Under the pieces are notes generated by a model, which was given only the letters and a program-made list of their open reading frames with translations, did not search any database and was not told where the DNA came from. Source: Pseudomonas fluorescens NCIMB 11764 (GTDB taxonomy: Bacteria > Pseudomonadota > Gammaproteobacteria > Pseudomonadales > Pseudomonadaceae). Taken from it: DNA of 64,000 nucleotides. Numbering within the stretch: the stretch's first letter is position 1; the number at the start of each line of letters is the position of its first letter. The position numbers were made by a program, and so were the translations under genes. The DNA lies in the NCBI RefSeq assembly GCF_000293885.2, contig NZ_CP010945.1:4732001-4796000 (forward strand). The letters run 5' to 3'. Below, in pieces: positions 43,839 through 60,447 of this stretch.

Positions 43839-43839
43839 G

Positions 43840-44604: not shown

Positions 44605-44614
44605 GGTGAGCGCC

Positions 44615-45421
44615 ATGTCAGTCTCAATGGAACTACAGGGTGCGATTGCGCTGATCACACTGGATCGTCCGCAGGCCTTGAATGCCCTCGATCTGGACTC
44701 GCTCCAGGTCCTTCGGGAGCACCTGGTGAATGTGCGCGATAACCCCGCGCTGCGCGTCGCCGTCATCACCGGTGCCGGCGAGCGGGCGTTTTGCGTCGGC
44801 GCGGACCTTAAAAGTACCCGTTCTTCGTCAGCCTCATATGCCCAGGCGCTGTTCCTGGCCAATGACCCTGCTGCCGATGCCGGTCTTTACATCCGCTTGA
44901 TGGACCTCAGCGACCTCGACCTGCACAAGCCACTGATTGCCGCTGTCAACGGTCACTGCCTGGGCGGTGGCCTGGAGCTGGCGTTGCAATGCGACCTGCG
45001 CATCGCCTGCAGCAGCGCCTCCTTCGGGCTGCCCGAGGCTGCCGTGGGCTCTATCCCTGCGGTCAGTGGTTTGCACCGGCTGATGCGGGCGATACCGGCG
45101 GCCCCTGCCATGCAGATGGCCTTGACCGGGCAACGCATCGATGCACACCAGGCACACAGCATCGGCCTGATCTCCGAACGGCTGGACAGCCACGACGCAT
45201 TGCTGGCGCGTGCCATGGAGCTCGCCGAGCGAATTGCACAGCAGGCGCCACTGGCCATACAGGCACTGCAAACCCTGTCACGCAGCACTGCGCACCTCAG
45301 CGACCGCGATGCCCAGCGGTTGACCGAGTTGTACTGGGGGGTGCTGCGCGATACCGAAGATCGAATCGAGGGCCGTCAAGCCTTCGCCGAGAAACGTGTA
45401 CCGCACTACAAGGGCCGCTAG
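44615..45421 (+). CDS. Enoyl-CoA hydratase/isomerase family protein
   Basis: This 268-residue crotonase family protein has the oxyanion-hole motif ERAFCVGADLKS, HCLGGGLELALQCDLRIA and the glutamate region FGLPEAAVGSIPAVSG. It hydrates an enoyl-CoA to a 3-hydroxyacyl-CoA, or isomerises it. The in-frame ATG at 44564 overlaps the SDR gene; the ATG at 44615 with a gaggtg site is preferred. The operon encodes no acyl-CoA dehydrogenase, so the natural substrate may already carry an alpha,beta double bond. Confidence 0.9.
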   Translation: MSVSMELQGAIALITLDRPQALNALDLDSLQVLREHLVNVRDNPALRVAVITGAGERAFCVGADLKSTRSSSASYAQALFLANDPAADAGLYIRLMDLSDLDLHKPLIAAVNGHCLGGGLELALQCDLRIACSSASFGLPEAAVGSIPAVSGLHRLMRAIPAAPAMQMALTGQRIDAHQAHSIGLISERLDSHDALLARAMELAERIAQQAPLAIQALQTLSRSTAHLSDRDAQRLTELYWGVLRDTEDRIEGRQAFAEKRVPHYKGR

Positions 45422-45439
45422 GTGGCCCGAGGAGAGATC

Positions 45440-45850
45440 ATGCAATTGCACAATCCCTTTCTTCAGGGCCTGGGTGTCAAGTTGATCCGCTGGGAACCGG
45501 GAGAGGCCGAATTTCAGCTGCACATCGCCGAACAACATCTCAACCGTCAGGGCGCCTTGCACGGCGGGATGATCGCCACACTGATGGACGCGGCGTGTGG
45601 CTATGCAGGCTTGCACACTGGCGAAGGCGAAGCTGAGATCCATGGACTCACCGCAATGTTGAACATTGCCTACCTGCAACCGGCATTCGAAGGGAGCGTT
45701 AGCGCATTGGGCCGGGTTCGCCGCGCCGGCAGGAGCCTCTACTTCGCCGAAGCCGAGCTGCTGTCCGACACCGGCGTTCTTCTGGCCACCGCCCAAGGGA
45801 CCTTCAAGAAACCCCGGGCGTCGATCCGCGGAGGTAATCATGTTACGTAA
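45440..45850 (+). CDS. PaaI-type hotdog acyl-CoA thioesterase
   Basis: This 136-residue hotdog-fold protein has the PaaI-family motif NRQGALHGGMIATLMDAACG, in which the Asp and His-Gly-Gly region form the active site. It probably releases stalled acyl-CoA or aromatic acyl-CoA intermediates. A gaggag site precedes the ATG at 45440; a GTG six codons earlier is in frame. The stop overlaps the CoA-transferase start. Confidence 0.87.
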   Translation: MQLHNPFLQGLGVKLIRWEPGEAEFQLHIAEQHLNRQGALHGGMIATLMDAACGYAGLHTGEGEAEIHGLTAMLNIAYLQPAFEGSVSALGRVRRAGRSLYFAEAELLSDTGVLLATAQGTFKKPRASIRGGNHVT

Positions 45851-47045
45851 CGCACTGGAGGGCCTCACCGTCCTCGATTTCACCCAGATCGCCGCAGGCC
45901 CGACGGCGACCATGCTGATGGCCGACATGGGCGCTCGTGTGATCAAGGTCGAACCCCGCGAAGGAGAGCTGGGTCGCACCCTGGGGCCAGCCTGGGTGGG
46001 CGAGGACAGTGCGCTTTACCACGCTTTCAATCGCGGCAAGCAATGCATTGGCCTGGACCTCAAGCACCCGGACAGCATCGAGGTCATCAAACGCCTGGTG
46101 CTGCAAGCCGATGTGCTGATCGAAAGCATGCGCCCAGGTGTGATGACGCGGCTGGGCCTGGGTTATGAAACCCTCGCCGCACTCAAGCCTGACCTGATCT
46201 ATTGCTCGATCTCGGCCTACGGCCAGGAAGGACCCTATTCGGACCGGGCGGGTGTCGACGGGATTCTACAAGCGGATTCCGGCCTGATGAGCCTGATTGG
46301 CACGCCGGGCTCGGCGCCCTGCAAAGTGCAGGCTCCGGTGGTGGACGTGGTCACTGGCTACATGGCCTGCATGGCCGTATTGGCCAAGCTGCACGCCCGT
46401 CAGAGCGATGGTTTGGGCGGCCATCTGGATGTCAGCCTGATGAATTCGGCGCTTGCACTGCAACAGTCGTCCATCACCAGCTATCTGAGTGATGGAAAGT
46501 TGCCGACTCGCATCGGCAGCGGCGCACCCTACTCGGCACCCAACGAAGCCTTCCAGACTGCGGATGGCTGGCTGATGGTTGCGGCCTACAACGGCAACCG
46601 CTGGCCGACCCTGTGCAAAGTACTGAACCACGAAGAATGGATCACCGACCCACGCTACGTCAGCTCCGCACAGCGAGTCGTCCACCGCGCTGAGATGGGC
46701 GCCGCGTTGACTGACGTTTTCATCAGCAAACCAACGGCCCATTGGCTGCAGGTGTTGCATGAAGCGGACATTCTCTGTTCGAAGGTGGCCGACTACAGCG
46801 ATCTGATGACGCATCCACAGATTGCCAGCAATCGCATGCTGGTTGAGCTCAACGATCCTGTACAGGGCGTCGTGCGGGTCCCGGGGTTCCCCATCAACAG
46901 CGTGCAGGCTGCGCAAACAGCCTATGGGCCCGCCCCGCAAAACGGTGAACATTCGCGCTCGGTGCTGCGCGACTTTGCGTTTTCCGAAGCACAGATTGCC
47001 GCGCTACAGGCATCGAAGGCATTGCACTGTAGCGACGCCCTCTGA
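45840..47045 (+). CDS. CaiB/BaiF class III CoA-transferase
   Basis: This 401-residue family III CoA-transferase moves CoA between carboxylic acids without a free acyl-phosphate or AMP step. Landmarks are VLDFTQIAAGPTATMLMADMGA (in part), GARVIKVEPREGE, NRGKQCIGLDLKHP and the catalytic aspartate region QAPVVDVVTGYMA. As the activating enzyme it would load the imported acid with CoA for the hydratase, dehydrogenase and thiolase encoded upstream. A ggagg site precedes the ATG at 45840. A strong terminator follows. Confidence 0.92.
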   Translation: MLRNALEGLTVLDFTQIAAGPTATMLMADMGARVIKVEPREGELGRTLGPAWVGEDSALYHAFNRGKQCIGLDLKHPDSIEVIKRLVLQADVLIESMRPGVMTRLGLGYETLAALKPDLIYCSISAYGQEGPYSDRAGVDGILQADSGLMSLIGTPGSAPCKVQAPVVDVVTGYMACMAVLAKLHARQSDGLGGHLDVSLMNSALALQQSSITSYLSDGKLPTRIGSGAPYSAPNEAFQTADGWLMVAAYNGNRWPTLCKVLNHEEWITDPRYVSSAQRVVHRAEMGAALTDVFISKPTAHWLQVLHEADILCSKVADYSDLMTHPQIASNRMLVELNDPVQGVVRVPGFPINSVQAAQTAYGPAPQNGEHSRSVLRDFAFSEAQIAALQASKALHCSDAL

Positions 47046-47060
47046 CGGCCAATGGCTGAA

Positions 47061-47106
47061 ACCCGGGCCCTTTCATCGCAACGCGGTGGAGGGTCCCGGG
47101 TTTTTT
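47061..47106 (+). terminator. Intrinsic terminator of the acyl-CoA operon
   Basis: acccgggccct and agggtcccgggt form a stem of about 11 base pairs with one bulge and a long loop, followed by six T residues. It separates the catabolic region from the Nit1C cluster. Confidence 0.88.
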
Positions 47107-47171
47107 CTTTTCTGCAAAACACCTGGTTGTTCAAGCTCGCGGCAAATATCGCGGAACCTGAAGCGCACCAC

Positions 47172-47226
47172 TACGATATTTCGTACCGAGCTACTACGAA
47201 ACTCCGTATTTATACGCAAATTCGTG
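47172..47226 (+). promoter_or_regulatory. Three TACGA-N4-TCGTA activator sites upstream of the Nit1C cluster
   Basis: Sites are TACGATATTTCGTA (47172-47185, perfect arms), TACGAAACTCCGTA (47195-47208, one mismatch) and TACGCAAATTCGTG (47213-47226, one change per arm). They lie about 100-170 bases upstream of a sigma-54 promoter, the usual place for enhancer-binding protein sites. A perfect copy occurs before the activator gene at 56574. The 364-base gap 47046-47409 holds the terminator, these sites and the promoter. Confidence 0.8.
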
Positions 47227-47326
47227 ATCCGGAGATGAACCCCGAGGGGCTTTCAAGACGTTTGAAATTTTAATTTATCGTTGTGTTTCAACGAGTTGAT
47301 GATCGCAAAGACCAACAGGATTCAAG

Positions 47327-47343
47327 TGGCACACTTCTCGCTC
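47327..47343 (+). promoter_or_regulatory. Sigma-54 promoter of the Nit1C cluster
   Basis: TGGCACActtcTCGCT has a perfect TGGCAC -24 element and GG-N10-GC spacing; the -12 element TCGCT departs from TTGCW at one base. It lies about 70 bases before the first gene. Confidence 0.8.
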
Positions 47344-47409
47344 CAGTCCCTGTAACCGATCGGCCGATCCCGGCCATCGATAACAGCAAGTACTACTGGA
47401 GACGACGAC

Positions 47410-47892
47410 ATGCCCAATGTGGACATTGCCCACTATCAAGACGGCGACTTTTTGGTCAACTACGAAGAAAAGGTCTTCGAGGACGTCAAGGCCGCACCCG
47501 GTGACAAGGCCCTGTTGACCTTCCACACGATCGCCTTCGAAGGCTCCATTGGCCTGGTCAACATGCTGCAAGCCAAGCGCCTGCTGCGCAAAGGTTTTGA
47601 AACCAAGATCCTGCTCTACGGGCCAGGCGTGCAACTTGGCGTGCAACGCGGCTTCCCCACCTTGGGCGCCGAGGCCTTCCCTGGCCACTTGGCCGTCAAT
47701 AACCAGATCAAGGCATTCATGGCTGAAGGCGGTGAAGTCTATGCCTGCCGCTTTGCCTTGCAGGCGCTGTATGGGCAAACCGAAAAAGCCCTGATCGAAG
47801 GCATTCGCCCAATCAACCCTCTGGATGTCATGGACCTGCGTCTGCTGATGCGTCGTGAGGGCGCGATGATCATCGATACCTGGACTGCCTGA
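47410..47892 (+). CDS. MSMEG_0572/Sll0783 family nitrogen starvation response protein (Nit1C)
   Basis: This 160-residue protein of the family first named from Mycobacterium smegmatis and Synechocystis nitrogen-starvation loci is always found with the Nit1C set. Visible features are a globular alpha/beta DsrE-like pattern: [20 protein letters not shown] at the N-terminal strand-helix and [16 protein letters not shown] with a small-residue loop. No catalytic function is known. It is the first gene after the sigma-54 promoter and is separated from the nitrilase by an 84-base gap containing a very stable hairpin. Confidence 0.85.
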
Positions 47893-47897
47893 GTCGC

Positions 47898-47931
47898 GGC
47901 CCGCCCGCTCCGCGCAGGAAGCGGGCGGGCC
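47898..47931 (+). other. Stable hairpin between first Nit1C gene and nitrilase
   Basis: ggcccgcccgct and agcgggcgggcc form a perfect 12-base-pair, almost all-GC stem with a ten-base loop, starting five bases after the stop codon. No T run follows, so transcript protection or attenuation is more likely than full termination. Confidence 0.7.
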
Positions 47932-47976
47932 TGCAAAGACCTTCAGCCTCCCTCCGCCGCCCCAAGGAATTACCCC

Positions 47977-48921
47977 ATGCCCGTTATTCGCGCCGCCGCC
48001 GTGCAGTTCAGTCCCGTGCTTTACTCGCGCCAGGCAACCGTCGACAAACTCTGCCGCCAGCTGCTGGAACTGGGCCGCGAAGGCGTGCAGTTTGCTGTCT
48101 TTCCGGAAACCGTGGTGCCGTACTACCCCTACTTCTCGTTCGTGCAGCCGCCCTGTGCCATGGCCAGGCAACACCTCATGCTGCTCGAAGAGTCGGTCAC
48201 CGTGCCCTCGGACGTCACCCGCCAGATCGGCGAAGCCTGCCGCGAAGCCAACCTCGTCGCCTGCATCGGTGTCAACGAACGCGATGGCGGCACAATCTAC
48301 AACGCTCAACTGCTGTTCGACGCCGACGGCACGCTTATCCAGCACCGACGCAAGATAACCCCCACCTATCACGAGCGCATGGTCTGGGGCCAGGGCGATG
48401 GCTCCGGTCTGCGCGCTACCGACAGCGCCGTCGGCCGCATCGGCGCCCTCGCTTGTTGGGAACATTACAACCCGCTGGCGCGCTACGCGCTGATGGCCGA
48501 TGCAGAACAGATTCACGCAGCGATGTTCCCCGGTTCCCTGGTCGGTCAGATCTTCGCTGATCAGATCGAAGTCACCATCCGCCATCACGCCCTGGAAAGC
48601 GGCTGTTTTGTGGTCAACGCCACTGCCTGGCTGGATGCCGGGCAACAGGCACAAATCATGGCCGACACAGGTTGTGCCATCGAACCTATCTCAGGTGGTT
48701 GCTTCACGGCCATCGTTTCGCCGGAAGGCAAGCTGCTCGCGCAGATGACCGAGGGCGAAGGGGTGATCATCGCCGACCTCGACTTTGCCTTGATCGACAA
48801 GCGTAAACGCATGATGGATTCAGTCGGCCATTACAGCCGCCCGGAATTGCTTAGCCTGCAGATCGACCGCCGAGTCACGGCACATGTGCATGAGCGTGGC
48901 GAGGCTTGCGAACATGAATAG
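47977..48921 (+). CDS. Nit6803 family nitrilase (Nit1C)
   Basis: This 314-residue nitrilase superfamily enzyme has an intact Glu-Lys-Cys triad: E44 ([12 protein letters not shown]), K126 ([20 protein letters not shown] in part) and C160 ([18 protein letters not shown] in part). It converts a nitrile to the acid and ammonia. Enzymes of this exact family within the same gene set have been tied to growth on cyanide as nitrogen source in P. fluorescens NCIMB 11764 (recalled knowledge). The following radical SAM gene overlaps its end by eight bases. Confidence 0.93.
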
Positions 48922-50005
48922 CCCAATGATTGCCAGCGATCTGCTGGCCCAACTGCAATGCCATGGCGTTCGCTGGCAAGGCGCCGAAGGTCTGAGCCGC
49001 AAGGGTGGAGCGGGCCCGTCGGACCACAAGGCGCTGAGCCTGGGCGCGCACACCGCCATGGTGCCGATGCTCAACCGCGCCTCCCTGGACTCGCCCTACT
49101 CTGCCGAACCTGACGCCACCGGCGGCCAGGCGCTGATCTTTCGCGAAGGCTTGCAGGTTGGCCAGGTACAACTGCCGGGCGTGCCGAATTTCTACAGTTT
49201 GAGCACCGAAGACGGTACGCCGTACTGGAAGATCGCCACGTTGCACAGCAAGGACGTGTTGGCCACAACCGTGCTGCAACACTGCATCCGCATGAACGAA
49301 GCGGCCACTTCCTGCCAGTTCTGCGCCATCGACCAGTCCCTGACGTCGGGCAAGACCATTGCCCGCAAGCGCCCTGCACAATTGGCAGCGGTCGCAAAAG
49401 CGGCGGTCAAGCTGGACGGCGTCAAGCACATGGTGATGACCACTGGCACGCCGCAGACGCCCGACCGTGGTGCGGCAATCCTTTGCGAATCGGCGGCGGC
49501 CGTAACGGCCGCGGTCGACCTTCCCATCCAGGCCCAATGCGAGCCGCCAGACGACGATGTCTGGTTCGAGCGTCTCAAGGACAGCGGCGTGGTCTCGCTG
49601 GGCATGCACCTGGAGGCAGTCACCGACGAAGTTCGCCGGCGGATCATGCCGGGCAAGGCCGAAGTCCCGTTGCAACGCTACTTCAGCGCCTTCGAGGCCG
49701 CGGTCAAGGTCTTCGGCCATGGCCAGGTCAGCACCTACATCCTCGCCGGACTTGGCGACAGCGAGGAGGCCATCGCCAACATGTGCGAAAGGCTCGCACG
49801 CATGGGCGTATACCCCTTCGTGGTGCCCTTCGTGCCCATCGACGGCACTCCACTGGCCCACCACCCAAAACCCGACAGCGCCTTTATGCAACGGCTCTAT
49901 CCGCGTATCGGTGCGAGCTTGCGCCGGCATGGGCTGCATTCGGACAACATCAACGCCGGCTGCGCCAAATGCGGCGCCTGCTCGGCCCTGAAACATTACG
50001 AGTGA
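48914..50005 (+). CDS. MSMEG_0568 family radical SAM protein (Nit1C)
   Basis: This 363-residue radical SAM protein of the Nit1C cluster has an unusual iron-sulfur motif: C124-x9-C134-x2-C137 ([15 protein letters not shown]) instead of C-x3-C-x2-C. A second cysteine set, C350-x2-C353-x2-C356 (CAKCGAC), lies near the C-terminus and could bind an auxiliary cluster. The barrel segments [16 protein letters not shown] and [20 protein letters not shown] are consistent with biotin-synthase-like enzymes. The ATG at 48914 is preferred over one at 48884 that lies deeper inside the nitrilase gene. The reaction is unknown. Confidence 0.88.
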
Positions 50006-50018
50006 CAGGAGCCTGACC

Positions 50019-50582
50019 ATGGCCGAACACGCATTTGCCTTGAGCGAAGACACGTTCCGGGATTTTCTCGCCGACGATTTGCTCGTCAAGCCAGCCAGTG
50101 AAACCTGGGAGCGCAGCGGATATTACGCACTGCGCCGCACAGTGTTCTGCGAAGAACAACGTTTGCTGGAGAAAGACAAGGACGAACGCGACTTTCAGGC
50201 CATTCCCATTGTTGCCATCGCCCACCACTGCGGCATGCCGGAACAAGTGATTGGCGCCGTGCGGATCTACCAGACCGAGCCCGGTGTCTGGTTCGGCGGT
50301 CGCCTGTGCGTGGAGCGGGCCTACCGCCGCCACGGCATGATCGGCAAAGCCCTCGTCAACGAAGCGGTATCGCGGGCTATCGACCTGGGCTGCCAGACCT
50401 TCCTGGCCACCGTGCAGGTTGCCAACCAGCAGTATTTCCATGGCTTGCACTGGCAGACGCTTGAGGCAATCGAGCTGCTTGGCCAGCCCCACATGCTGAT
50501 GCAGGCAGACCTTGATTGCTATCCCTTCATGCGGCGTCAGGTTGCCTTGACGCCTCGCCGGAGCCGCTGTCATGGGGACTGA
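50019..50582 (+). CDS. MSMEG_0567/Sll0786 family GNAT acetyltransferase (Nit1C)
   Basis: This 187-residue GNAT-fold protein has the acetyl-CoA pyrophosphate loop in FGGRLCVERAYRRHGMIGKAL (R/Q-x-x-G-x-G/A type) and the downstream TFLATVQVANQQYFHGLHW helix. Its acceptor is unknown. It follows the radical SAM gene by 13 bases and overlaps the next gene by 11 bases, so it is translationally coupled with the AIR-synthase-like protein. The central conserved cysteine-glutamate patch (RRTVFCEEQRLL) is visible. Confidence 0.87.
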   Translation: MAEHAFALSEDTFRDFLADDLLVKPASETWERSGYYALRRTVFCEEQRLLEKDKDERDFQAIPIVAIAHHCGMPEQVIGAVRIYQTEPGVWFGGRLCVERAYRRHGMIGKALVNEAVSRAIDLGCQTFLATVQVANQQYFHGLHWQTLEAIELLGQPHMLMQADLDCYPFMRRQVALTPRRSRCHGD

Positions 50583-51567
50583 TCTGCACACCCTGTTGGC
50601 AGCATTGAAGAACACGCCAGCAATGCGTTCCAAACAAGCTATCCAGCAACCAGCGCGATTCATGCAAGCGTTGACGTGCAGCGACGATGCGCGCTACGCG
50701 TTACCCGGTGACGACACCGCAGCCATCCGTTGTGGCGACCAATACCAACTGCTCGCCATCGAGGGCATGCTGCCGAACTTTGTCGCCCAGGCGCCGTGGT
50801 TCGCCGGTTGGTCGTCTGTCATGGCCAACGTCAGTGATATTACCGCCATGGGCGGTCGCGCCACGGCAGTGGTCAATGCCTATTGGCATCACGATGTCGA
50901 AGCAGCCGACAGCGTGCTCGCCGGCATTCGCGACGCCTGCAATGCCTATGGCCTGATCCTCGCGGGCGGTCACACCAGCCTCACCCCGGACAATCCGACG
51001 GCACTCGCCGTGGCGATCACTGGCTGGGCCCGGAGCCTGCTCTCGAGCCTTCATGTCGCGCCCGGTCAGGCCCTGGCCATGGTCGTGGACCTCAACGGCC
51101 AATGGCACGGCCAGGCGCCGTACTGGAAAGCGTTCGAAGGTGTGCCCGGCGAACGATTGCGGGAAAAGCTCGAAGTCATTCCGCGCCTGGCCGAGGCAGG
51201 CCTGTTGCTGGCCGCCAAGGACATCAGCAACGCGGGGATTCTTGGTTCCTTGCTGATGTTGCTGGAGCCGACAGGATGTGGCGCGCGAGTCGATCTCGGC
51301 GCCCTGCCCCGACCTGGGGATGCGCCTTTGGAACGCTGGCTGCAAGCCTTCCCCAGCTACGGCTTCCTGTTGACCCTCAAGCCAGAAGACCTGGCCACTG
51401 TGCAGGCGGCCTTCGCCTTTGAAGGTTTGCACTGCGCGCCAATCGGCACGATCAACGGCAGCGCCAGCCTCGACGTACAACTGGCCAACCAGCACGACGA
51501 ATTCTGGAACTTGCGACGACAGCCCTTTACCGGTTTCAGCTACCCCAACCTGATCAAGGAGCACTGA
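50572..51567 (+). CDS. Sll0787 family AIR synthase-like protein (Nit1C)
   Basis: This 331-residue protein is related to PurM, HypE and SelD, ATP-dependent enzymes that activate carbonyl or selenium groups. The N-terminal GDDTAAI motif and the MANVSDITAMGGRATAVVNAY segment (in part) match the AIR-synthase ATP-binding half, and GHTSLTPDNPTAL follows. The C-terminal half begins with VIPRLAEAGLLLAAKDISNAG. Within the cluster it could phosphorylate or dehydrate an amide-like intermediate, as HypE does when it makes a thiocyanate-like nitrile; this is inference only. Confidence 0.87.
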   Translation: MGTDLHTLLAALKNTPAMRSKQAIQQPARFMQALTCSDDARYALPGDDTAAIRCGDQYQLLAIEGMLPNFVAQAPWFAGWSSVMANVSDITAMGGRATAVVNAYWHHDVEAADSVLAGIRDACNAYGLILAGGHTSLTPDNPTALAVAITGWARSLLSSLHVAPGQALAMVVDLNGQWHGQAPYWKAFEGVPGERLREKLEVIPRLAEAGLLLAAKDISNAGILGSLLMLLEPTGCGARVDLGALPRPGDAPLERWLQAFPSYGFLLTLKPEDLATVQAAFAFEGLHCAPIGTINGSASLDVQLANQHDEFWNLRRQPFTGFSYPNLIKEH

Positions 51568-51568
51568 C

Positions 51569-51895
51569 ATGCCCGCCGTCAACATCCGCTTGCGCTGGCC
51601 CGATGGCCAGGAGAGCAACGCCTACTCGCCGTCCACCACCATCTACGACTACCTGCAAGCGGGTCAAAGCTATCCCCTCGACGAATTTCTGCGCCGGGCG
51701 GAAACCGGCCTCAACAACGCCTCCGAACGGGTCAGGCAGGTCAAGGGTTTTTATTGCAGCGCTGCGATGGACACGCTCGGCAGCCTGCGCCTGAGCGCGA
51801 GCAAGTTCAATGCGCGCGAGGCGCAGGTCGAGGTACTGGAAATCAAGAACCAGGGCGCCGGGCAGGTTAACTACGCCGGATTTTCCGACATTTGA
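51569..51895 (+). CDS. MSMEG_0570 family nitrogen starvation response protein (Nit1C)
   Basis: This 108-residue protein follows the AIR-synthase-like gene by one base. The start PAVNIRLRWPDGQESNAYSP, an internal FLRRAETGLNNASERVRQVKG helix (in part) and FYCSAAMDTLGSL with a single cysteine are visible. The family has no known activity; it is recognised by sequence type and constant context. Confidence 0.85.
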   Translation: MPAVNIRLRWPDGQESNAYSPSTTIYDYLQAGQSYPLDEFLRRAETGLNNASERVRQVKGFYCSAAMDTLGSLRLSASKFNAREAQVEVLEIKNQGAGQVNYAGFSDI

Positions 51896-51921
51896 ATCAC
51901 GACTTCTCAGAGGACCACAGC

Positions 51922-53145
51922 ATGAATCACTACAAAGCGATCGTCGTCGGCGGCGGCCAGGCAGGCCTTTCTGCCAGTTACTACCTGCAACAGCAAGACA
52001 TCGACCACCTGGTGCTGGAAAAGCACACCCTGACCCACACCTGGCGCAACCAGCGCTGGGACGCCTTTTGCCTGGTGACTCCCAACTGGCAATGCGCCCT
52101 GCCCGGCTATCCCTATGCCGGTGACGACCCGCACGGGTTCATGAAAAAGGATCAGATCATCCGCTACCTGGACGGATTCATCGCCAAGGTCAACGCCCCG
52201 GTGCGTGAGGGCGTGACCGTACAACGCATGAGCGCCCGCGCAGAAGGCGGTTACCTGCTTAACACCAGTGCAGGCGACTTCAGCGCCGACCAGGTCATCG
52301 TCGCCAGCGGCGGCTACCACACCCCGATCATTCCGCGCCTGGCCGAACGCCTGCCAGCCGAGATCAAGCAAATCCACTCCGAACAGTACCGCAACCCCGA
52401 TGCGCTGCCAGAGGGTGCAGTCCTGGTGGTCGGCTCTGGGCAGTCCGGCGCGCAAATCGCCGAAGACCTGCACCTGGCCGGCCGCAAAGTCTTCCTTGCA
52501 GTAGGCGATGCGCCGCGCTGCGCGCGCTTTCACCGCGGCAAAGACGTGGTCGACTGGCTGGCCGAGATGGGCTACTACGACATCGGTGTTGATGTGCACC
52601 CTCTGCGCGAGGGCGTACGCGACAACACTAACCATTACGTCACCGGCCGTGACGGCGGGCGTGACATTGACCTGCGCCGCTTCGCCAGCGAAGGCATGCA
52701 ACTGTTCGGCCGCCTGGAAAGCCTGGACGGCACCACCCTGAAGTTCGCCCCTGATCTTGGCACCAACCTCGACGCAGCGGATGCCGTGTACAACCGAATC
52801 AATGCGAGCATCGACAAGTACATTGCGGAAAAAGGTATTGAGGCCCCCGCCGGCACGGTCTATGAGCCACTGTGGACGCCCGGGCAGGAAACCACCGATC
52901 TGAACCTGGCAGGCTCGGGCATCACCAGCATCATCTGGTGCATCGGCTTCCAGCCGGACTTTACCTGGGTCGACGTCCCCGTATTCAACGGCCGCAGCTA
53001 TCCCGGCCATCAACGCGGCGTGACTGCCCGAAAGGGCCTGTACTTCCTCGGTTTGCCATGGCTACACACTTGGGGCTCGGGGCGGTTTTCCGGGGTGGCG
53101 CGCGATGCGCAGTTCGTGGTCGAGCATCTCGCTGCTTGCCGCTGA
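51922..53145 (+). CDS. MSMEG_0569 family flavin-dependent oxidoreductase (Nit1C)
   Basis: This 407-residue FAD/NADPH-dependent protein resembles flavin monooxygenases. It has the FAD motif IVVGGGQAGLSASYYL, the TWRNQRWDAFCLVTPNW segment and the second dinucleotide motif VLVVGSGQSGAQIAEDL. In monooxygenases of this group NADPH and oxygen form a hydroperoxyflavin that oxygenates nitrogen or sulfur. An agagga site supports the ATG at 51922 over one at 51892. It completes the seven-gene Nit1C set. Confidence 0.9.
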   Translation: MNHYKAIVVGGGQAGLSASYYLQQQDIDHLVLEKHTLTHTWRNQRWDAFCLVTPNWQCALPGYPYAGDDPHGFMKKDQIIRYLDGFIAKVNAPVREGVTVQRMSARAEGGYLLNTSAGDFSADQVIVASGGYHTPIIPRLAERLPAEIKQIHSEQYRNPDALPEGAVLVVGSGQSGAQIAEDLHLAGRKVFLAVGDAPRCARFHRGKDVVDWLAEMGYYDIGVDVHPLREGVRDNTNHYVTGRDGGRDIDLRRFASEGMQLFGRLESLDGTTLKFAPDLGTNLDAADAVYNRINASIDKYIAEKGIEAPAGTVYEPLWTPGQETTDLNLAGSGITSIIWCIGFQPDFTWVDVPVFNGRSYPGHQRGVTARKGLYFLGLPWLHTWGSGRFSGVARDAQFVVEHLAACR

Positions 53146-53165
53146 CCTTTCGACTGGCATTTATC

Positions 53166-53188
53166 CGTCGGCCCTGCGCGGGCCGACG
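53166..53188 (+). other. Hairpin between Nit1C flavoprotein and LnmK-like gene
   Basis: cgtcggccc and gggccgacg form a perfect nine-base-pair stem with a five-base loop in the 56-base gap. There is no T run. The short gap and same strand suggest that the next two genes are still in the Nit1C transcript. Confidence 0.65.
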
Positions 53189-53201
53189 TCAGGGGTTTCG
53201 C

Positions 53202-54050
53202 ATGCATAACGTCAGCCTCGAACAGACTTACCTCGCCAGCATGCCCAATCTGGCGTACACCGGCTTGTCCGAAAACTGGCTGCTCAAGGAATGCGGTCAC
53301 CAGCACTGGCTGGCGCTCGCCGGACTCTACGACCGACCACTCCCCGATTTTGTCGACGCACAGGGGCGCACAGCCTATGCCGCCTTCACCCTGGTCAAAA
53401 GCCAGGGGCTGCAGTTGCAGGCGATCACCGAGAATCGCTCGTTCAGGATAGAAACAAAACTCGGCCGGGCGGGCCAAACCCGGCATTACAGCGAACATCG
53501 GCTGATGCTCGGCCAGCGTTGCGTCGCAGAAATCAGCCTGATGTCGGCCTTTGTCAGCCGCCATACGCCGGGGGACAACCGTAGCGTCGCCAAAGCCAGC
53601 CTCAGGGGCACAGCACCGATTGAGGCCACCCTCCCCACCTCCCTGCAAACCTTGCATGCGTTCGGCAAACAGCTGCGTAAAGGCGACTGGCTCAAGCACT
53701 TCGAGATCAGCCGTGCCGCGTCATCAGCAACATCGGTCTTCTCATTCACCCCTTGCCCCGACGTCGACTTCAATGGCGCCGAATTTCTTTACTTTGCCAA
53801 CTTCCAGGCGCTGGTCGAGCGCGCCGAGTGGAGCGTACTGGGGCTGCGCCGCCCAGGTTTGGTAAGGCAACGTGAAATCCACTTCCACGGCAACCTCAAC
53901 ATTGGCGACAGCGTTCACGTTCATCTGCATACCGCAGAAGCTGGCCAACATTCACGGCATTGGTGCGAGGTTTTTCGCCAGTCCGATGGCTACAAGCTTG
54001 CCGATGTCTTTACCGAGAAAACCTGGCTTCGGGAGTGCACAAGGCCATGA
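53202..54050 (+). CDS. LnmK-like (Pnap_2097 family) double-hotdog protein
   Basis: This 282-residue protein resembles the LnmK-type biosynthesis-cluster family. LnmK of leinamycin synthesis is a bifunctional acyltransferase/decarboxylase that turns methylmalonyl-CoA into a propionyl thioester. Visible segments are the N-terminal YTGLSENWLLKECGHQHW, the central LKHFEISRAASSATSVF and DFNGAEFLYFANFQALVERA (second hotdog), and WCEVFRQSDGYKLADVFTE near the end. The ATG at 53202 has an agggg site. The next gene, overlapping by four bases, encodes methylmalonyl-CoA mutase, which would provide exactly the substrate expected for a LnmK enzyme. The family call is from recalled similarity and is less certain than the context. 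Confidence 0.65.
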   Translation: MHNVSLEQTYLASMPNLAYTGLSENWLLKECGHQHWLALAGLYDRPLPDFVDAQGRTAYAAFTLVKSQGLQLQAITENRSFRIETKLGRAGQTRHYSEHRLMLGQRCVAEISLMSAFVSRHTPGDNRSVAKASLRGTAPIEATLPTSLQTLHAFGKQLRKGDWLKHFEISRAASSATSVFSFTPCPDVDFNGAEFLYFANFQALVERAEWSVLGLRRPGLVRQREIHFHGNLNIGDSVHVHLHTAEAGQHSRHWCEVFRQSDGYKLADVFTEKTWLRECTRP

Positions 54051-56221
54051 CTCGTTCTCCGTTGTACCGCGCCCCCGGCCTGCAACTCAAAGCGCTTTAC
54101 CGACCCTGCGATCTTGCCGGCATCGAACATCTGGATAGCGATCCGGGCAAGCCGCCTTATCTGCGCGGCCCCTACGCCAGCATGTACACCCACAAACCCT
54201 GGACGATCCGTCAATACAGCGGTTTTGCCGACGCCCGGTTGTCCAATCAGCGTTTACGCCAAAGCCTCGCCGAGGGGGCCCAGGGACTGTCCGTTGCATT
54301 CGATCTGCCGACCCATCGTGGTTACGATTCTGACGACACTCACTGCAGCGCCGACGTCGGCAAGGCCGGCGTGGCCATCGACAGTGTCGAGGACATGCTT
54401 GAATTGTTCGACGGCATTGCACTGGACCGGGTTTCCGTGTCGATGACTATGAACGGCGCGGTTCTTCCAGTTCTGGCAGCCTTTATCGTGGCCGCCCAGG
54501 AGCGCGGCATCGCCAGGGAGCAACTGAGCGGTACCATCCAGAACGACATTCTCAAAGAGTTCATGGTGCGCAACACTTATATCTTTGCGCCCGAACCTTC
54601 GCTGCGGATCTGCACCGATGTCATCGAATACCTCGCCCGGCACATGCCACGTTTCAACCCCATTTCAGTGTCCGGCTATCACTTCCAGGAAGCCGGCGCC
54701 GATCCAATACTCGAATTGGCACTGACCCTCCTCAACGCGCGAACCTATGTCGAGCAGGTGCGACTTCGAGGGCTGGATATCAACGCCTTTTGCGCGCGAA
54801 TGAGCTTCTTCTTTGGTGTCGGCAACGACTTCTTTACGGAGGTGGCAAAGCTACGGGCTGCGCGTGTTTTATGGAATGAGATCAGCGAACAGATGGGGGC
54901 CGACAAGCCGCGCGCCAGGGCCATGCGCATGCATTGCCAAACCTCCGGCTGGACGTTATGCGCACAGGACCCGATGAACAATGTCGTGCGCACGACCGCA
55001 CAGGCCATGGCCGCAGTATTTGGCGGCACCCAGTCACTGCACACCAATGCCTGGGATGAAGCCCTCGCACTGCCCAGCGCAAGTTCGGCAAGGCTGGCAA
55101 GCAACACCCAACAAATCCTGCAAGAAGAAACCGGTCTGACCGATGTCATTGACCCTTGGGCCGGCTCCTACATGATGGAGTCCTTGACCGCGTCAGTGTG
55201 CCGCGAGGTTCGCGCGTGTATTGCACGCATAGACAGTGAAGGCGGCGTGGTCGCGGCGATCAATAATGGCTCGATCAGCACGATGATCCATGCCCAGGCA
55301 GTGCAGACACAAGCGCGGCTCGATACCGGAGCGCTACGACGGGTCGGAGAACGGACAGCCAGCCCGACATCGCAAGCCCTCCATACGGTCTATCCGGTGG
55401 ACAGCTGCGCGGTGCGTCAGCGTCAGAACCAGCGACTCACGCAATTGCGTATCAGGCGAGACGAGGCGGCGGTACAGGCGCACCTTCAGGCGCTCACCCA
55501 TTGCGCACGGAACGGTCAGGGCAATCTGCTGGAACTCGGCATTGCCGCGATCAGCGTCAGAGCGACCGTAGGTGAGTGTACGAAGGCACTGGAGAAAGCC
55601 TGGCCTCGTCACCGTCAGGCACCTGCTTTTCTACCCCGCGGCTATGGTGCCCTGCGTGGCCAATTGCCTGGTTGGTCGGCACTTTGTGAACGTACTTCAC
55701 GCTTTTCGACACAGCATGGCCGGCCGCCACAGGTACTGCTCGGAAAACTCGGCCAGGATGGCCATGATCGCGGGATCCGCTTGATCGCCTCAGTGCTCGT
55801 CGAAGCAGGATTTCGGGTCACGATGCTGCCACTGTTCCAGAGTCCAGCCGAACTGCTGGCCTCCATGAACGCCGATGGGCCGGTCGATCTGATCGGATTT
55901 TCCAGCCTTGCAGGTGCGCACAACGAAATACTCTGCGACCTGCTCCTACAGCTGCATCGCCAGCGCATCGACGTTCCCGTCGTGCTGGGCGGGATCATTG
56001 CGCAATCGGACATCGCCTCACTCACCCAGCAGGGTGTGCGTGCCGTCTTCGGCCCAGGGGACGATGTGCTCAAAATCGCCAATCAGTTGATGAGCCTTGT
56101 CGAGCAACAATCTGTTCAAAGCCGCGCACGGAATGCGGCAGGATTCAGCGGCGCCGAAACAGCGGCCGGGGCTCAATCGCCAAGCGCCCATACTGCACGC
56201 TCATACCAGCCAGCCCCCTGA
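54047..56221 (+). CDS. Adenosylcobalamin-dependent methylmalonyl-CoA mutase
   Basis: This 724-residue mutase carries both the acyl-CoA barrel and the B12 domain on one chain. The barrel keeps the mutase landmarks RGPYASMYTHKPWTIRQYSG, SVAFDLPTHRGYDSD, MVRNTYIFAPEPSLRI (active-site Arg), ISVSGYHFQEAGAD (active-site His) and HCQTSGWTL. The C-terminal domain has the cobalt-ligand motif DGHDRG (571-576) and GFSSLAG. The linker (about 440-560) is divergent from ordinary mutases. The start overlaps the LnmK-like stop (ATGA), so the two are coupled. No epimerase or MeaB-type chaperone gene lies nearby. It probably links succinyl-CoA and methylmalonyl-CoA. Confidence 0.9.
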   Translation: MTRSPLYRAPGLQLKALYRPCDLAGIEHLDSDPGKPPYLRGPYASMYTHKPWTIRQYSGFADARLSNQRLRQSLAEGAQGLSVAFDLPTHRGYDSDDTHCSADVGKAGVAIDSVEDMLELFDGIALDRVSVSMTMNGAVLPVLAAFIVAAQERGIAREQLSGTIQNDILKEFMVRNTYIFAPEPSLRICTDVIEYLARHMPRFNPISVSGYHFQEAGADPILELALTLLNARTYVEQVRLRGLDINAFCARMSFFFGVGNDFFTEVAKLRAARVLWNEISEQMGADKPRARAMRMHCQTSGWTLCAQDPMNNVVRTTAQAMAAVFGGTQSLHTNAWDEALALPSASSARLASNTQQILQEETGLTDVIDPWAGSYMMESLTASVCREVRACIARIDSEGGVVAAINNGSISTMIHAQAVQTQARLDTGALRRVGERTASPTSQALHTVYPVDSCAVRQRQNQRLTQLRIRRDEAAVQAHLQALTHCARNGQGNLLELGIAAISVRATVGECTKALEKAWPRHRQAPAFLPRGYGALRGQLPGWSALCERTSRFSTQHGRPPQVLLGKLGQDGHDRGIRLIASVLVEAGFRVTMLPLFQSPAELLASMNADGPVDLIGFSSLAGAHNEILCDLLLQLHRQRIDVPVVLGGIIAQSDIASLTQQGVRAVFGPGDDVLKIANQLMSLVEQQSVQSRARNAAGFSGAETAAGAQSPSAHTARSYQPAP

Positions 56222-56573
56222 GGGCATCGTCAGGGGATTTGTCATCACGCACCGCAATTTGCTCGGTACTCAACGACGGGCGATCACTTTGCCCAAGGCT
56301 GCGCTTGCGCTGATATTCATTACAGATTCAGATCTCGTATAAAAACAGGATCAGACTCAACTGAACCTGTCCGGTAGGCGCGCCCTATCTGATATCTTTT
56401 TTTTAAACGGTTGCTCTGCCTGTTTTACCTCAAACAACTAGCACCTGACCTTTCACCGCTGGCGCTCATCACATCAATCTGCGATGGTTTTTTACGGCTC
56501 ATCTGATGCTATCAATGAACCCCGAACTCCCGTAGATATACGAAAATTCGTAACGCCACGAGATGTCGTACCC
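56222..56573 (+). promoter_or_regulatory. Intergenic region with perfect TACGA-N4-TCGTA palindrome before the activator gene
   Basis: TACGAAAATTCGTA at 56539-56552 is a perfect palindrome matching the three sites before the Nit1C cluster. It lies 21 bases before the chosen start of the sigma-54 activator, which suggests autoregulation. A weak hairpin (56346-56369) and a T run (about 56397-56403) follow the mutase gene; a TATAAA hexamer near 56338 could be a sigma-70 -10. No sigma-54 promoter was seen here. Confidence 0.7.
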
Positions 56574-58478
56574 ATGAACGAAACCGACTCCATCACTGGC
56601 TGGGCCGACCTGGCCTACTCTTCACGACATATGGTTTTCGAGCATTGCGCCGAAGCCATTGCCCTGCTCAACCCCTTCTCCGACCGCTTGGTGGACCTGA
56701 ACATCGCAACCTGCAAGTTGCTCGGTTACCCGCGTCAGGAACTGCTTGATCTGCCTGTGAGCAAACTGTTCGGTCATCAGTTGGCGGACTTGATCGTGTT
56801 TACCCAAGCCGTCATGGACAAAGGTCGCGGCTGGACTGAAGAACTGAGTTGCAACTGCAAGACCGGTGAGCGCATCGAATTGACGATTTCTGCCACAACC
56901 TTGCAGATCAAGGGCCAGCAGCAGCTTATCCTGGTACTGCGAGAACTGAGCCATGAGCAATACCAGCGTGACCAGGCCCACACTGAGCGCACCATGCGCG
57001 GCGGGCTGATCGAGTGGCGCAATATCCTCAACCTGTTCCAGGAATCGGAGCGTGATAACCAGTTACTGCTCAGTTCGGTGGGGGACGGTATCTACAGCAT
57101 CAACACAGAGGGCCTGGCTACTTTTGTCAATCCGGCCGGGGCTCGGATGCTGGGTTGGGAGCCCAAGGACATGATCGGCAAGAACATCCACCGCATACAC
57201 CACCACACCCATGCCGACGGCAGCCATTACCCGGTCGAGAGCTGTCCGATCTACAAGGCGGTGCGTGATGGTGTGGTTCATGAAGGACGCCAGGAGATCT
57301 TCTGGCGCCGCGATGGCAGTTCGTTCCCGGTGGAGTTCACCAGTACTCCAGTGATTTCCGATGGCCGAATCGTCGGGGCCGTGGTGGTTTTTCGGGATAT
57401 TACCGAACGGCGCAATACCGAAAACCAACTGCAAAGTGCGCTTGATGAGCTGCAGGTACTGAAAAAACGGCTGGAAGAGCAAAACGCCTACTTGCAGGAA
57501 GAGATTCATATCGAGCACAACTTCCGCGAAATCGTTGGCCAGAGCGCCCCCATTCTAAAAATCATCAAGCAGATCGACGTGGTTGCCCCTACCGATGCCA
57601 GCGTACTGATCAACGGCGAGTCGGGCACGGGTAAGGAATTGATCGCCCGTGCGATTCATCAGGCCAGCCGTCGCAACGCAAGTCCGCTGATCCGGGTCAA
57701 CTGCGCGGCAATTCCCACCGAGCTGTTTGAAAGCGAATTCTTCGGACATATCCGTGGCGCCTTTACCGGTGCTGTCCGCGATCGCGTCGGGCGCTTTGAA
57801 CTGGCCGATGGCGGCACGCTGTTTCTCGACGAAATTGGCGAAATCCCCCTGGAGCTGCAAAGCAAGCTGCTGCGGGTTTTGCAGGAAGGCCAATTCGAAC
57901 GGGTCGGCGAGGAGCGCACGCGCAAGGTCGATGTCCGGATCATTGCTGCCACCAATCGGGACTTGCGTCTGGAAGTGGCGGACAAGCGTTTTCGCGAAGA
58001 CTTGTATTTTCGCCTTAACGTATTCCCGATCCAGTCTCCCGCACTTCGCGATCGTCCCATGGACATCGCGCCGCTCGCTGCGCACTTCCTTAAACAAACC
58101 GCAAAGCGGCTAAACATGCCTGGGCGTCGACTGCGCAACCTGGATATCGAGCGCCTGCAGCGCTACTCCTGGCCGGGCAATATCCGCGAGCTGCAAAACG
58201 TCATTGAGCGTGCGCTGATCACTTCAATCGGCGTAGACCTGACGCTCGATCTGCCCGAAGAGAACAAACACAGTCCTCTGCTGACTCAACCCTCCAGCGT
58301 CTCCCCCACGATCATGACCGATGCCCAGTTGCGCGAACTGGAGCGCAACAACATGCAGGCTGCGCTCAAGGCCGCTGACGGCAGATTGTTTGGCAAAGGT
58401 GGAGCAGCTGAACTTCTTGGGCTGAAACCCACGACGTTGGCTTCAAGGTTCAAACGGCTGGATATCAAACCCGGATAG
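56574..58478 (+). CDS. PAS domain sigma-54-dependent activator, probable Nit1C regulator
   Basis: This 634-residue enhancer-binding protein has two N-terminal PAS domains (about 20-125 and 165-290, the second with [20 protein letters not shown]), a coiled-coil linker ([21 protein letters not shown], in part), an AAA+ domain and a Fis-type helix-turn-helix. Walker A is GESGTGKE, the sigma-54 loop is a canonical GAFTGA and Walker B is [12 protein letters not shown]2 holds an [17 protein letters not shown] stretch rich in His and with one Cys, a possible metal or heme ligand set. An ATG 30 codons upstream is possible; the shorter start leaves the palindrome outside the coding sequence. Matching palindromes point to the Nit1C promoter as target. 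Confidence 0.88.
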
Positions 58479-58519
58479 CATCATGTCAGCCGCCCGCTTG
58501 CCTGCGATCCTCGCGGAGC

Positions 58520-59455
58520 TCAGCGCGGGCTGGGAGCAGCGGCTAACGGGTCAGGTTGTGTCGGCCTGAACACCAGACCCGAGGCAAACACTACGCCCAG
58601 AATGACGCCGCCAGCGCCAAGCAGTTGCCAGACATTGGGTGCTACACCCAACACCGAGGAAACCAGCATGGTGAACACTGGGGCCAGATTGAAAAAGATC
58701 GACGTGCGTGCGGCGCCGATGGCGTGGATGCCTTTGAACCACAGCAAGTACGCAATCAACGAGCCGCAGACCGCCAGGTAGATGACTGCACCATGAATGG
58801 ACAGCGAAGCGGTACTGATGCTGGCAACCGGAGCCTCATAGATGAATCCCAGCACAATCAGGCCAATGACACCGAACAACATCGAGAAGGTTGTTGTTTC
58901 CAGCGGCGTTGCATTTTTGACAAAGCGCCGTGTGCCGACCATGTTCGCAGCCCATGCAATGCTGCCGGCCAGAATGATCGCATCACCGGTGGCCACTTTC
59001 AGCCCCAGAAGCACCTGGATATCCCCTCGGGTGATCACCAGGCCGACGCCCAGCAAGCCCAATACGAGACCTATGGCACGCCCGCGATCAATGCGATCGC
59101 CCTCAAGCAGAACTGCAAAGAGCATGGTCCAGAGCGGCGTGGTCGCCAGGATCAATGCGCCGTTGATGGGGGTGGTGCTTTGCAGGCCAAAGAATGTCGC
59201 GAGGTTGAACGCAGTGAATCCAAGCAGGCCCAGGCCGATAAAAGCCACCAGATTGTTCTTCAGCGTGCTCAGGCGCAACTTGCCGGCCAGACCGAAAATC
59301 AGTACGAGTAACAGGGTAGAAATCGAAAAGCGCTCAATGGAAGCGCTGATGGGTGCCATGCTCTTGATGATGTAGGCACCCGCGTTGAAGTTGGTGCCCC
59401 AGAAAAATGTGGCACCCACGATGCCGGCATACGCGAGAGGCGTTGATTTAGACAT
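58520..59455 (-). CDS. EamA/DMT family transporter
   Basis: This 311-residue protein has ten predicted membrane helices in two EamA repeats. Landmarks are GATFFWGTNFNAGAYIIKSM in the first repeat, INGALILATTPLWTMLFA and GLVLGLLGVGLVITRG, and SIAWAANMVGTRRFVK in the second. These proteins usually export metabolites or amino acids. It converges with the sigma-54 activator gene and is divergent from the LysR gene at 59602, which probably controls it. The substrate is unknown. Confidence 0.9.
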   Translation of the reverse strand: MSKSTPLAYAGIVGATFFWGTNFNAGAYIIKSMAPISASIERFSISTLLLVLIFGLAGKLRLSTLKNNLVAFIGLGLLGFTAFNLATFFGLQSTTPINGALILATTPLWTMLFAVLLEGDRIDRGRAIGLVLGLLGVGLVITRGDIQVLLGLKVATGDAIILAGSIAWAANMVGTRRFVKNATPLETTTFSMLFGVIGLIVLGFIYEAPVASISTASLSIHGAVIYLAVCGSLIAYLLWFKGIHAIGAARTSIFFNLAPVFTMLVSSVLGVAPNVWQLLGAGGVILGVVFASGLVFRPTQPDPLAAAPSPR

Positions 59456-59601
59456 GGCTTTTTCCTCGTCAAGTCGTGCGATGAAAACCCGGCAGCACGC
59501 GGGGCTCTTTGCACCTGTTTGTCAGGTGTTGAAAGATTCTTGCAGACCCGTCGACGGGGAAAAATTCCCCATTTATTCACCTGTCATATGAGAAAACGCC
59601 C

Positions 59602-60447
59602 ATGTTTGACTGGGAGGATCTTCGCTATTTCATTGTCTTCGCCCATGAACACTCTTTATCGGCGGCGGCACGCAAGCTCAAGGTCGACCATGCCACCGTG
59701 GCGCGCCGCATCAGCGCCCTCGAGGGCTCGCTTAACCTCAAACTGGTGGACCGCCGCCCTCGCTCGTACGTGATCACCGAAGACGGGGAACGTATCGCTC
59801 AGCTGGGGCGACGCATGGAAAGCGAATCCTTCGCGGTGCAGCGGACCGCGTTGGCCGGGCAGGAAAGCTATACCGGCGAAGTCATCGTCAGTGCCCCGCC
59901 AGCGCTCGCCTGTACCCTGATCGCGCCCCGCATCAATGAATTGCGCATGAAACATCCGCAGCTGTCCCTGCAATTGATCGGTAGCCTGGGCAGCGCTTCC
60001 TTATCACGACGGGAGGCGGATATAGCTGTGCGACTGAGCCGCCCCACAGAGCCGGACCTGGTGGCCCGCAAGGTTGCGACGTTGCCGTTCCACCTCTATG
60101 GCTCGGCGGACTATTTGGCCAACACCGCCGCGCAGGACCTGACTTTCATCGCCTACGACGAGACGATGGAACAAACACCACAGCAGGACTGGCTCCAGGC
60201 GCAAGCGGGTGATCGTCCTATCCTGCTGCGCAGCAATGACCTGAATATCCAGGCCACCTGCGCTCAAGCAGGCGCCGGTGTTGCCGCACTGCCCTACTTC
60301 CTGGGTCGCCACTACGGTCTGCAAGCGATGGAGACCGTGGGAGCGGATTTTGCGCGGGATGTGTGGCTAGTGGTCCATAGCGACATCCGCTATACCCCTG
60401 CTGTCCAGGCGGTAATGAGTTTTCTCGCATCCTGCTTTGATAACTGA
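59602..60447 (+). CDS. LysR-type transcriptional regulator
   Basis: This 281-residue LysR protein has the winged helix MFDWEDLRYFIVFAHEHSLS with KLKVDHATVARRISALEGSL as recognition region, and an effector-binding domain with AQAGAGVAALPYFLGRHYGL. It is divergent from the EamA transporter gene across 146 bases, the usual arrangement for a LysR regulator and its target. It is shorter than the LysR protein at 40154-41059 and not closely related. Confidence 0.92.
   Translation: MFDWEDLRYFIVFAHEHSLSAAARKLKVDHATVARRISALEGSLNLKLVDRRPRSYVITEDGERIAQLGRRMESESFAVQRTALAGQESYTGEVIVSAPPALACTLIAPRINELRMKHPQLSLQLIGSLGSASLSRREADIAVRLSRPTEPDLVARKVATLPFHLYGSADYLANTAAQDLTFIAYDETMEQTPQQDWLQAQAGDRPILLRSNDLNIQATCAQAGAGVAALPYFLGRHYGLQAMETVGADFARDVWLVVHSDIRYTPAVQAVMSFLASCFDN

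Follow-up and report, generated by a model that had tools for sequence, protein, structure and literature searches.

A LnmK-family protein and a methylmalonyl-CoA mutase behind the Nit1C cluster of Pseudomonas fluorescens NCIMB 11764: a candidate propionyl-tailoring module

The 64,000-nt stretch of Pseudomonas fluorescens NCIMB 11764 analysed here (the window; all coordinates are window positions) carries two genes directly behind a complete Nit1C cluster, a widespread nitrogen-starvation gene cluster. The first encodes a 282-residue relative of LnmK, the methylmalonyl-coenzyme A (CoA):acyl carrier protein acyltransferase/decarboxylase of leinamycin biosynthesis, and the second an adenosylcobalamin-dependent methylmalonyl-CoA mutase (MCM). 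Judging from sequence comparisons, it is moderately likely that the pair forms an optional, co-regulated tailoring module, which would give the Nit1C pathway a propionyl unit derived from succinyl-CoA. We favour this explanation because of the identities of the two genes, their catalytic residues, their linkage to Nit1C, the promoter features they have in common with it and the presence of an MCM in every carrier genome tested. The genome that holds the window is a single contig of 7.0 Mb, and its nearest relatives found are Pseudomonas. We know of no established end product of Nit1C.

The LnmK-like protein and the adjoining mutase

The 282-residue protein passes the cut-offs of both LnmK-type NCBIfam families, TIGR04099 (Pnap_2097 family; 295.3 bits, cut-off 125) and TIGR04098 (LnmK; 255.8 bits, cut-off 100); by these profiles, its resemblance to LnmK is far beyond chance. 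Pfam gave no family for it at an E-value of 0.1, and a single-sequence search of the PDB returned one match, at chance level (E 0.72). A profile of 19 relatives reached LnmK in the PDB at E 4.9e-13. The AlphaFold2 model (pLDDT 85.9, pTM 0.87) is a double hotdog, and in a PDB fold search the first seven matches are all LnmK (E 4.3e-17 to 1.3e-14, TM 0.76-0.79 on the query), with FatA-type and other double-hotdog thioesterases ranking next. Identity to LnmK in the structural alignment is low, at 15-16%. Tyr59 lies opposite LnmK Tyr62, the acyl-carrying active-site residue of that enzyme, and is invariant in 19 of 19 sequences; furthermore, the window protein has a segment, DFNGAEFLYFANF, that matches DVNGVGLLYFASY of LnmK, with DxNGxxxLYF as the common pattern. 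The initial annotation had described an LnmK-like protein and proposed a search with hidden Markov models, and the two family matches, the fold and the tyrosine all agree with that description, against the refutation by a missing family match that it had allowed for. At NCBI the gene is called simply "Pnap_2097 family protein", TIGR04099 being a hypothetical equivalog. In Pseudomonas reinekei MT1 (L008:9974-10057) there is an in-frame stop near the start of the LnmK-like gene, which is open in the closely similar P. moorei locus (L010).

The second protein exceeds the cut-off of the MCM equivalog NF006944 (923.6 against 876) and also matches PF01642 and PF02310. Tyr89, Arg207, Tyr243 and His244 are kept in all 22 rows of an alignment of operon and chromosomal mutases, and Lys604, Asp608 and His610 in 21 of them, the exception being P. 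fluorescens C2 (L002), where the open frame ends earlier. By P. shermanii numbering, Tyr89, Arg207 and His244 are substrate residues and His610 is the cobalamin ligand; it is at Tyr89 that chains 1req and 5req differ. The B12 mutase named in the initial annotation is thus full-length, with catalytic and B12-binding domains over cut-off and with its substrate and B12 residues retained. In L002 (10846-13043) the mutase match is interrupted near residue 536, giving two parts, and the reading frame stays open for 575 residues, through either a frameshift or an assembly error. In another Pseudomonas (genome G459, L092:11206-13037) the MCM frame stops after about 190 residues, at the point where an opposite-strand gene for a KAP-family P-loop NTPase ends, and the LnmK-like gene upstream is open.

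The LnmK-like reading frame runs from an ATG at 53202 to a TGA at 54048-54050, and that of MCM from an ATG at 54047 to a stop at 56219-56221, so that the four bases ATGA at 54047-54050 are common to the stop of one and the start of the other, as had been annotated. The same ATGA junction occurs in 19 of the 22 pairs examined, from nine Pseudomonas (window included), five Marinomonas and five Burkholderiales; the remaining three have an eight-base overlap (L012), a ten-base overlap (L092) and a short gap (L014), and the junction of L008 stands outside this count. Purifying selection is apparent on both genes in comparison with L002 and L003, the two closest relatives of the window locus: the ratio of nonsynonymous to synonymous substitution rates (dN/dS) of the LnmK-like gene is 0.18 against L003 and 0.13 against L002, and that of MCM is 0.14 against L003 (first 500 codons).

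Linkage to Nit1C and the promoters of the pair

The pair does follow seven Nit1C genes, as first proposed: all seven core families are present over their NCBIfam cut-offs in one operon-like run at 47410-53145. A gap of 56 bases separates the end of nitH (53145) from the start of the LnmK-like gene (53202), and a scan listed neither a terminator-like site nor a sigma70-like promoter in it. The earlier claim that no clear terminator intervenes is therefore fair, but not clean, since the gap holds an 8-bp hairpin that has no T run (Table 1); its fold z-score of -1.35 is not significant.

The association recurs in gamma-, beta- and alphaproteobacteria, which answers the survey of linkage that the initial annotation had called for and goes against the lack of linkage that it had named as a refutation. 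A scan of named genomes, which reaches close relatives only, found 16 relatives (nine Pseudomonas, five Marinomonas, one Oceanobacter and one Sessilibacter), and all 16 lie beside Nit1C genes and MCM. Among 398 genomes sampled evenly across the phylum, ten match TIGR04099 at E 0.001, six of them over cut-off. The four strong matches (E <1e-80, own genome included) all fall within the 16 genomes that carry Nit1C, as defined by an over-cut-off Nit1C radical SAM protein, and all lie beside the cluster. Fisher's test, with relatedness ignored, gives p = 1.8e-6 for the strong matches (4.4e-5 if our own genome is left out) and 2.5e-5 for all six. In a genus sample, Nit1C is present in 17 of 199 Pseudomonas genomes, and the two genomes with an over-cut-off LnmK-like gene are among these 17. 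A relative was also found in 60 plasmid records; among regions from 19 of these, picked by hand, 16 contain Nit1C, and five of them (all Burkholderiales) also have MCM directly behind. The LnmK-like gene usually comes right after nitH, with a gap of about 1.5 kb in L088 and L168. It is a recurrent, optional companion and is not essential to the Nit1C core. When 20 Nit1C loci lacking the LnmK-like gene were fetched, they contained no LnmK-like or MCM match; nor was a common replacement gene seen behind NitH in the 19 whose downstream side could be inspected (L131 runs into a contig edge).

The mutase accompanies the LnmK-like gene even where the two are not neighbours. MCM is present in 23 of 23 tested genomes with the LnmK-like gene, a set to which the plasmid-bearing strains without an adjacent MCM do not belong, and the five of these genomes without an adjacent copy each have one on another contig. 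In the 18 with an adjacent copy it is the sole match, except in the metagenome bin G603, which has a second, contig-edge fragment; the truncated copy of G459 is the only MCM match there. Across the genus sample, MCM occurs in 2 of 199 genomes, exactly the two with the LnmK-like gene (one copy truncated), and its phylum background is 182 of 398. Methylmalonyl-CoA epimerase was found over cut-off in 5/5 genomes with MCM elsewhere and in 0/18 with an adjacent MCM; sub-cut-off matches occur in all 23, and in our own genome, where all candidates were scored, none is over cut-off. Because this pattern fits, we read the adjacent mutase as probably recruited to make (2R)-methylmalonyl-CoA for the LnmK-like enzyme alone, and not for propionate catabolism.

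Regulation points in the same direction. The sigma54-dependent activator gene downstream of the pair is very likely that of the Nit1C regulator, because the same gene stands divergently beside nitB in 8 of the 9 same-genus loci among those 20 (L131 showed none). The region upstream of nitB holds a double-dyad activator-like site and a sigma54-type element (Table 1). In L002 and L003 an element at the same place as the latter has one mismatch to the sigma54 -24/-12 consensus, and the support for the window element is its fixed place in these relatives. Two overlapping copies of the activator-like site beside the activator start would reflect either autoregulation or the remnant of a divergent nitA-nitB promoter. 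With up to three mismatches, the dyad pattern has four matches in the whole genome, namely the nitB site, the two at the activator start and one elsewhere; the reversed pattern, used as a control in the same search, has none.

Seven other Pseudomonas loci (L004-L010) are arranged differently: the pair follows the activator gene, runs divergently to Nit1C and has its own promoter; G459 has a third Pseudomonas layout. The first dyad pattern was written after both promoter sets had been viewed, and the retest accordingly derived its profile only from five distinct sites upstream of nitB and left the nitB region itself out of the ranking. In all seven loci, which are close relatives and not seven independent events, a site at most 280 bases upstream of the LnmK-like gene ranks first of about 41,000 positions, with scores from 13.5 (L004, which has a one-base insertion in the site) to 36.6, against 6.4-9.8 for the next best elsewhere. 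A sigma54 profile trained likewise places the upstream site first in L004-L007 (4/7) and fourth in L008-L010 (3/7). A separate promoter had been named beforehand as a sign against a common role. Such a promoter does exist in these loci, but it bears a Nit1C-type activator site and a sigma54-type element, which argues for co-regulation. In the Marinomonas, Oceanobacter, Sessilibacter and alpha- and betaproteobacterial loci (L011-L017 and L086-L088; the plasmid loci were not scanned), the best match to the activator-site pattern has at least five mismatches.

Proposed chemistry and competing explanations

The pair probably supplies or attaches a three-carbon (propionyl) group. With adenosylcobalamin, the mutase would convert succinyl-CoA to (2R)-methylmalonyl-CoA, as its family and residues suggest. 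By analogy with LnmK, the LnmK-like enzyme would take the methylmalonyl group, probably as an ester of Tyr59, and decarboxylation and then release of the propionyl group would follow. The propionyl group might finally pass, directly or through the GNAT protein NitE, to a small molecule of the Nit1C pathway, with no polyketide synthase or carrier protein involved.

LnmK itself transfers to an acyl carrier protein. An acyl-carrier acceptor nearby is ruled out for the window, which has no match to PF00550, in line with the earlier remark that the surroundings hold no polyketide synthase. NitG was considered as a carrier and rejected: no DSL-type motif was seen by eye, and a fold search with its model gave nothing at E 0.001 or below. 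NitG is therefore not a recognisable carrier; its invariant Cys63 may be a thiol acceptor. Outside Nit1C, a family member in Azospirillum lies beside ketosynthase-type genes, which look polyketide-like, and a carrier protein. On a plasmid of Thalassospira marina (L167:1336-13947), also without Nit1C, the LnmK-like gene is part of a run with genes for a carrier protein, a fatty acyl-AMP ligase, a P450, a dioxygenase and a large AMP-binding protein. In a polysaccharide gene cluster on a Roseobacter litoralis plasmid (L172:9323-10777), one fused protein has a hexapeptide-repeat acyltransferase at its N-terminus, followed by an LnmK-type domain. This fusion suggests that LnmK-type domains can work for an acyltransferase with no carrier protein involved; by analogy, NitE would be the obvious acyltransferase partner in Nit1C.

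Several observations weigh against a propionyl-tailoring module of Nit1C. The stop in the LnmK-like gene of L008 and the broken MCM of L002 and L092 suggest that some strains may manage without the module. Most Nit1C clusters are without the LnmK-like gene: of the Nit1C genomes sampled across the phylum, 4 of 16 carry it, and of those sampled within the genus, 2 of 17. Conversely, two weaker over-cut-off phylum matches (131-132 bits) have no Nit1C on the stretches fetched, and the same holds for the sub-cut-off match G007 (the three stretches span 9.5, 17 and 19.5 kb; three further weak matches, at E 6e-4 to 1e-3, lie outside this check); 3 of the 19 plasmid relatives are likewise without Nit1C. 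The 17 PF00550 matches of the genome come no nearer than about 400 kb. Taken alone, the sigma54-type element of the window is weak, three intragenic sites of equal quality (two mismatches) occurring at 43000-60000. Finally, full-length MeaB (E <1e-90), the usual MCM chaperone, which would be expected to keep the mutase active, was found in 3/5 genomes with MCM elsewhere and in 0/18 with an adjacent MCM, where in 12 of the 18 only 68 of 69-112 first-look candidates were scored; in our own genome there was none among the 68 of 94 candidates scored.

The best-surviving alternative, which we nevertheless regard as unlikely, is a carbon route of the Sbm type, in which the LnmK-like protein is a methylmalonyl-CoA decarboxylase only, with CoA as the acceptor, so that succinyl-CoA is turned into propionyl-CoA and CO2 to feed NitE or general metabolism. 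The lack of a carrier protein in the window and the GNAT acyltransferase within the cluster would suit this route, and the combination of mutase and decarboxylase recalls ScpA and ScpB of Escherichia coli. The Roseobacter litoralis fusion can be read in the same way, as if one domain made the acyl donor for the other. However, the five genomes with MCM elsewhere have an epimerase and so should have other sources of propionyl-CoA, yet they keep the LnmK-like gene. Furthermore, the model of the LnmK-like protein is a double hotdog, unlike ScpB, which is a crotonase.

It is quite improbable that the LnmK-like protein has another acyl thioester as its substrate in the Nit1C pathway, or is a thioesterase there, while the mutase supplies something other than methylmalonyl-CoA. 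The low identity to LnmK, the double-hotdog thioesterases next in the fold ranking and the lack of an assigned function for TIGR04099 leave room for such a role. Against it stand the match to TIGR04098 over cut-off and the invariant Tyr59, the mutase that keeps Tyr89 and Arg207 and passes the MCM equivalog cut-off, and the MCM carried elsewhere by all five genomes without an adjacent one. Mere hitchhiking, with the pair adjoining Nit1C outside any common pathway, might account for the many Nit1C clusters that are without the pair and for its broken copies, but is already highly unlikely given linkage in several arrangements and families, purifying selection and the activator site that Nit1C has in common with a separately transcribed pair.

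Returning to the propionyl-tailoring module, a further-reaching version can be put forward tentatively: LnmK-type chemistry may here have moved off the assembly line, a carrier-free homologue and a dedicated B12 mutase together propionylating a small nitrogenous metabolite of Nit1C. In its boldest form, the enolate left after decarboxylation would be captured by an electrophile of the pathway, for example a nitrile, to form a carbon-carbon bond. If this were true, Nit1C would be a biosynthetic pathway in which glycosyl and propionyl tailoring are interchangeable, and not just a route of cyanide assimilation.

Genomic surroundings and known systems

The features of the locus are collected in Table 1. 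Just upstream of the Nit1C promoter, at 43780-47045, the window encodes a short-chain dehydrogenase, an enoyl-CoA hydratase, a hotdog thioesterase and the class III CoA-transferase, a set that is kept in L003. Elsewhere, on a 29-kb plasmid of Tabrizicola piscis (L170:1-11600), a complete Nit1C that includes the LnmK-like gene is accompanied by an RND efflux pair and a DUF983 gene; DUF983 genes are also found near Nit1C in L165, L174, L175 and L177. In eight beta- and alphaproteobacterial loci (L160, L161, L163, L171, L174, L175, L177 and L178), a divergent gene annotated as "PLP-dependent aminotransferase family" lies upstream of nitB, in the place that the sigma54 activator occupies in Pseudomonas; it is perhaps a MocR/GntR-type regulator.

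Table 1. Features of the Nit1C locus and the adjoining gene pair (window positions)
Feature	Position	Strand	Remarks
Class III CoA-transferase	45837-47045		upstream of Nit1C
Double-dyad activator-like site	47195..47225	+	upstream of nitB; 0 mismatches to TACGnAnnTnCGTnnTTnnACGnnAnTnCGT
Sigma54-type -24/-12 element TGGCACACTTCTCGCT	47327..47342	+	upstream of nitB; 2 mismatches to consensus
NitB, MSMEG_0572/Sll0783 family	47410..47892	+	TIGR04044
NitC, Nit6803-type nitrilase	47977..48921	+	TIGR04048
NitD, MSMEG_0568 radical SAM protein	48884..50005	+	TIGR04043
NitE, GNAT N-acetyltransferase	50019..50582	+	TIGR04045
NitF, AIR-synthase-like protein	50572..51567	+	TIGR04049
NitG, MSMEG_0570 family	51569..51895	+	TIGR04042; Cys63 invariant in 21/21 aligned
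NitH, MSMEG_0569 flavin-dependent oxidoreductase	51892..53145	+	TIGR04046
GC-rich hairpin, 8 bp, perfect, without T run	53167..53187	+	in the gap behind nitH; conserved in L002 and L003
LnmK-family acyltransferase/decarboxylase-like protein, 282 residues	53202..54050	+	TIGR04099, TIGR04098, fold; putative nucleophile Tyr59
Adenosylcobalamin-dependent MCM, single chain with B12-binding domain, 724 residues	54047..56221	+	
PAS-PAS-AAA+ sigma54-dependent activator (NitA-like)	56484..58478	+	likely true start Met31 (~56574), from comparison with L092
Two overlapping activator-like site copies	56522..56569	.	beside activator start; 2 mismatches on -, 3 on +

The LnmK family, TIGR04099, MCM and Nit1C are each already known. 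The module would add chemical handles on the Nit1C product, which should depend on B12, contain a three-carbon unit open to labelling from succinate and be formed while the sigma54 activator is on. A further implication is an LnmK-type enzyme that may act without a polyketide carrier protein.

Compared with LnmK (PDB 4hzn, 4hzo, 4hzp and 6x7l-6x7p), the window protein is alike in NCBIfam family, double-hotdog fold, the pairing of Tyr59 with Tyr62 and the DxNGxxxLYF pattern, but it is only 15-16% identical, has its own mutase in the operon and a Nit1C setting, and has no acyl carrier protein in the window, unlike an LnmK/LnmL-type beta-branching cassette, where the cognate carrier lies nearby. 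The Sbm system of E. coli (scpABC) offers the likeness of MCM followed by loss of CO2, as proposed for the window pair; in place of the crotonase ScpB, the partner here is a double-hotdog LnmK homologue that has no Pfam match and belongs to a Nit1C locus. With respect to the propionyl-CoA:succinate CoA transferase of an Sbm-type pathway, the window has the class III CoA-transferase at 45837-47045. The window cluster has all seven core families of Nit1C (the MSMEG_0565-0572 / sll0783-0787 type) and differs from other Nit1C clusters in its two extra 3' genes and, from some, in having no gene between nitF and nitG, where those hold the MSMEG_0565 glycosyltransferase. Within TIGR04099, the Pnap_2097 family, the window protein is a direct member and other members also follow Nit1C; to this family, which has no assigned function, the present analysis adds the coupling to a mutase and the common promoter site.

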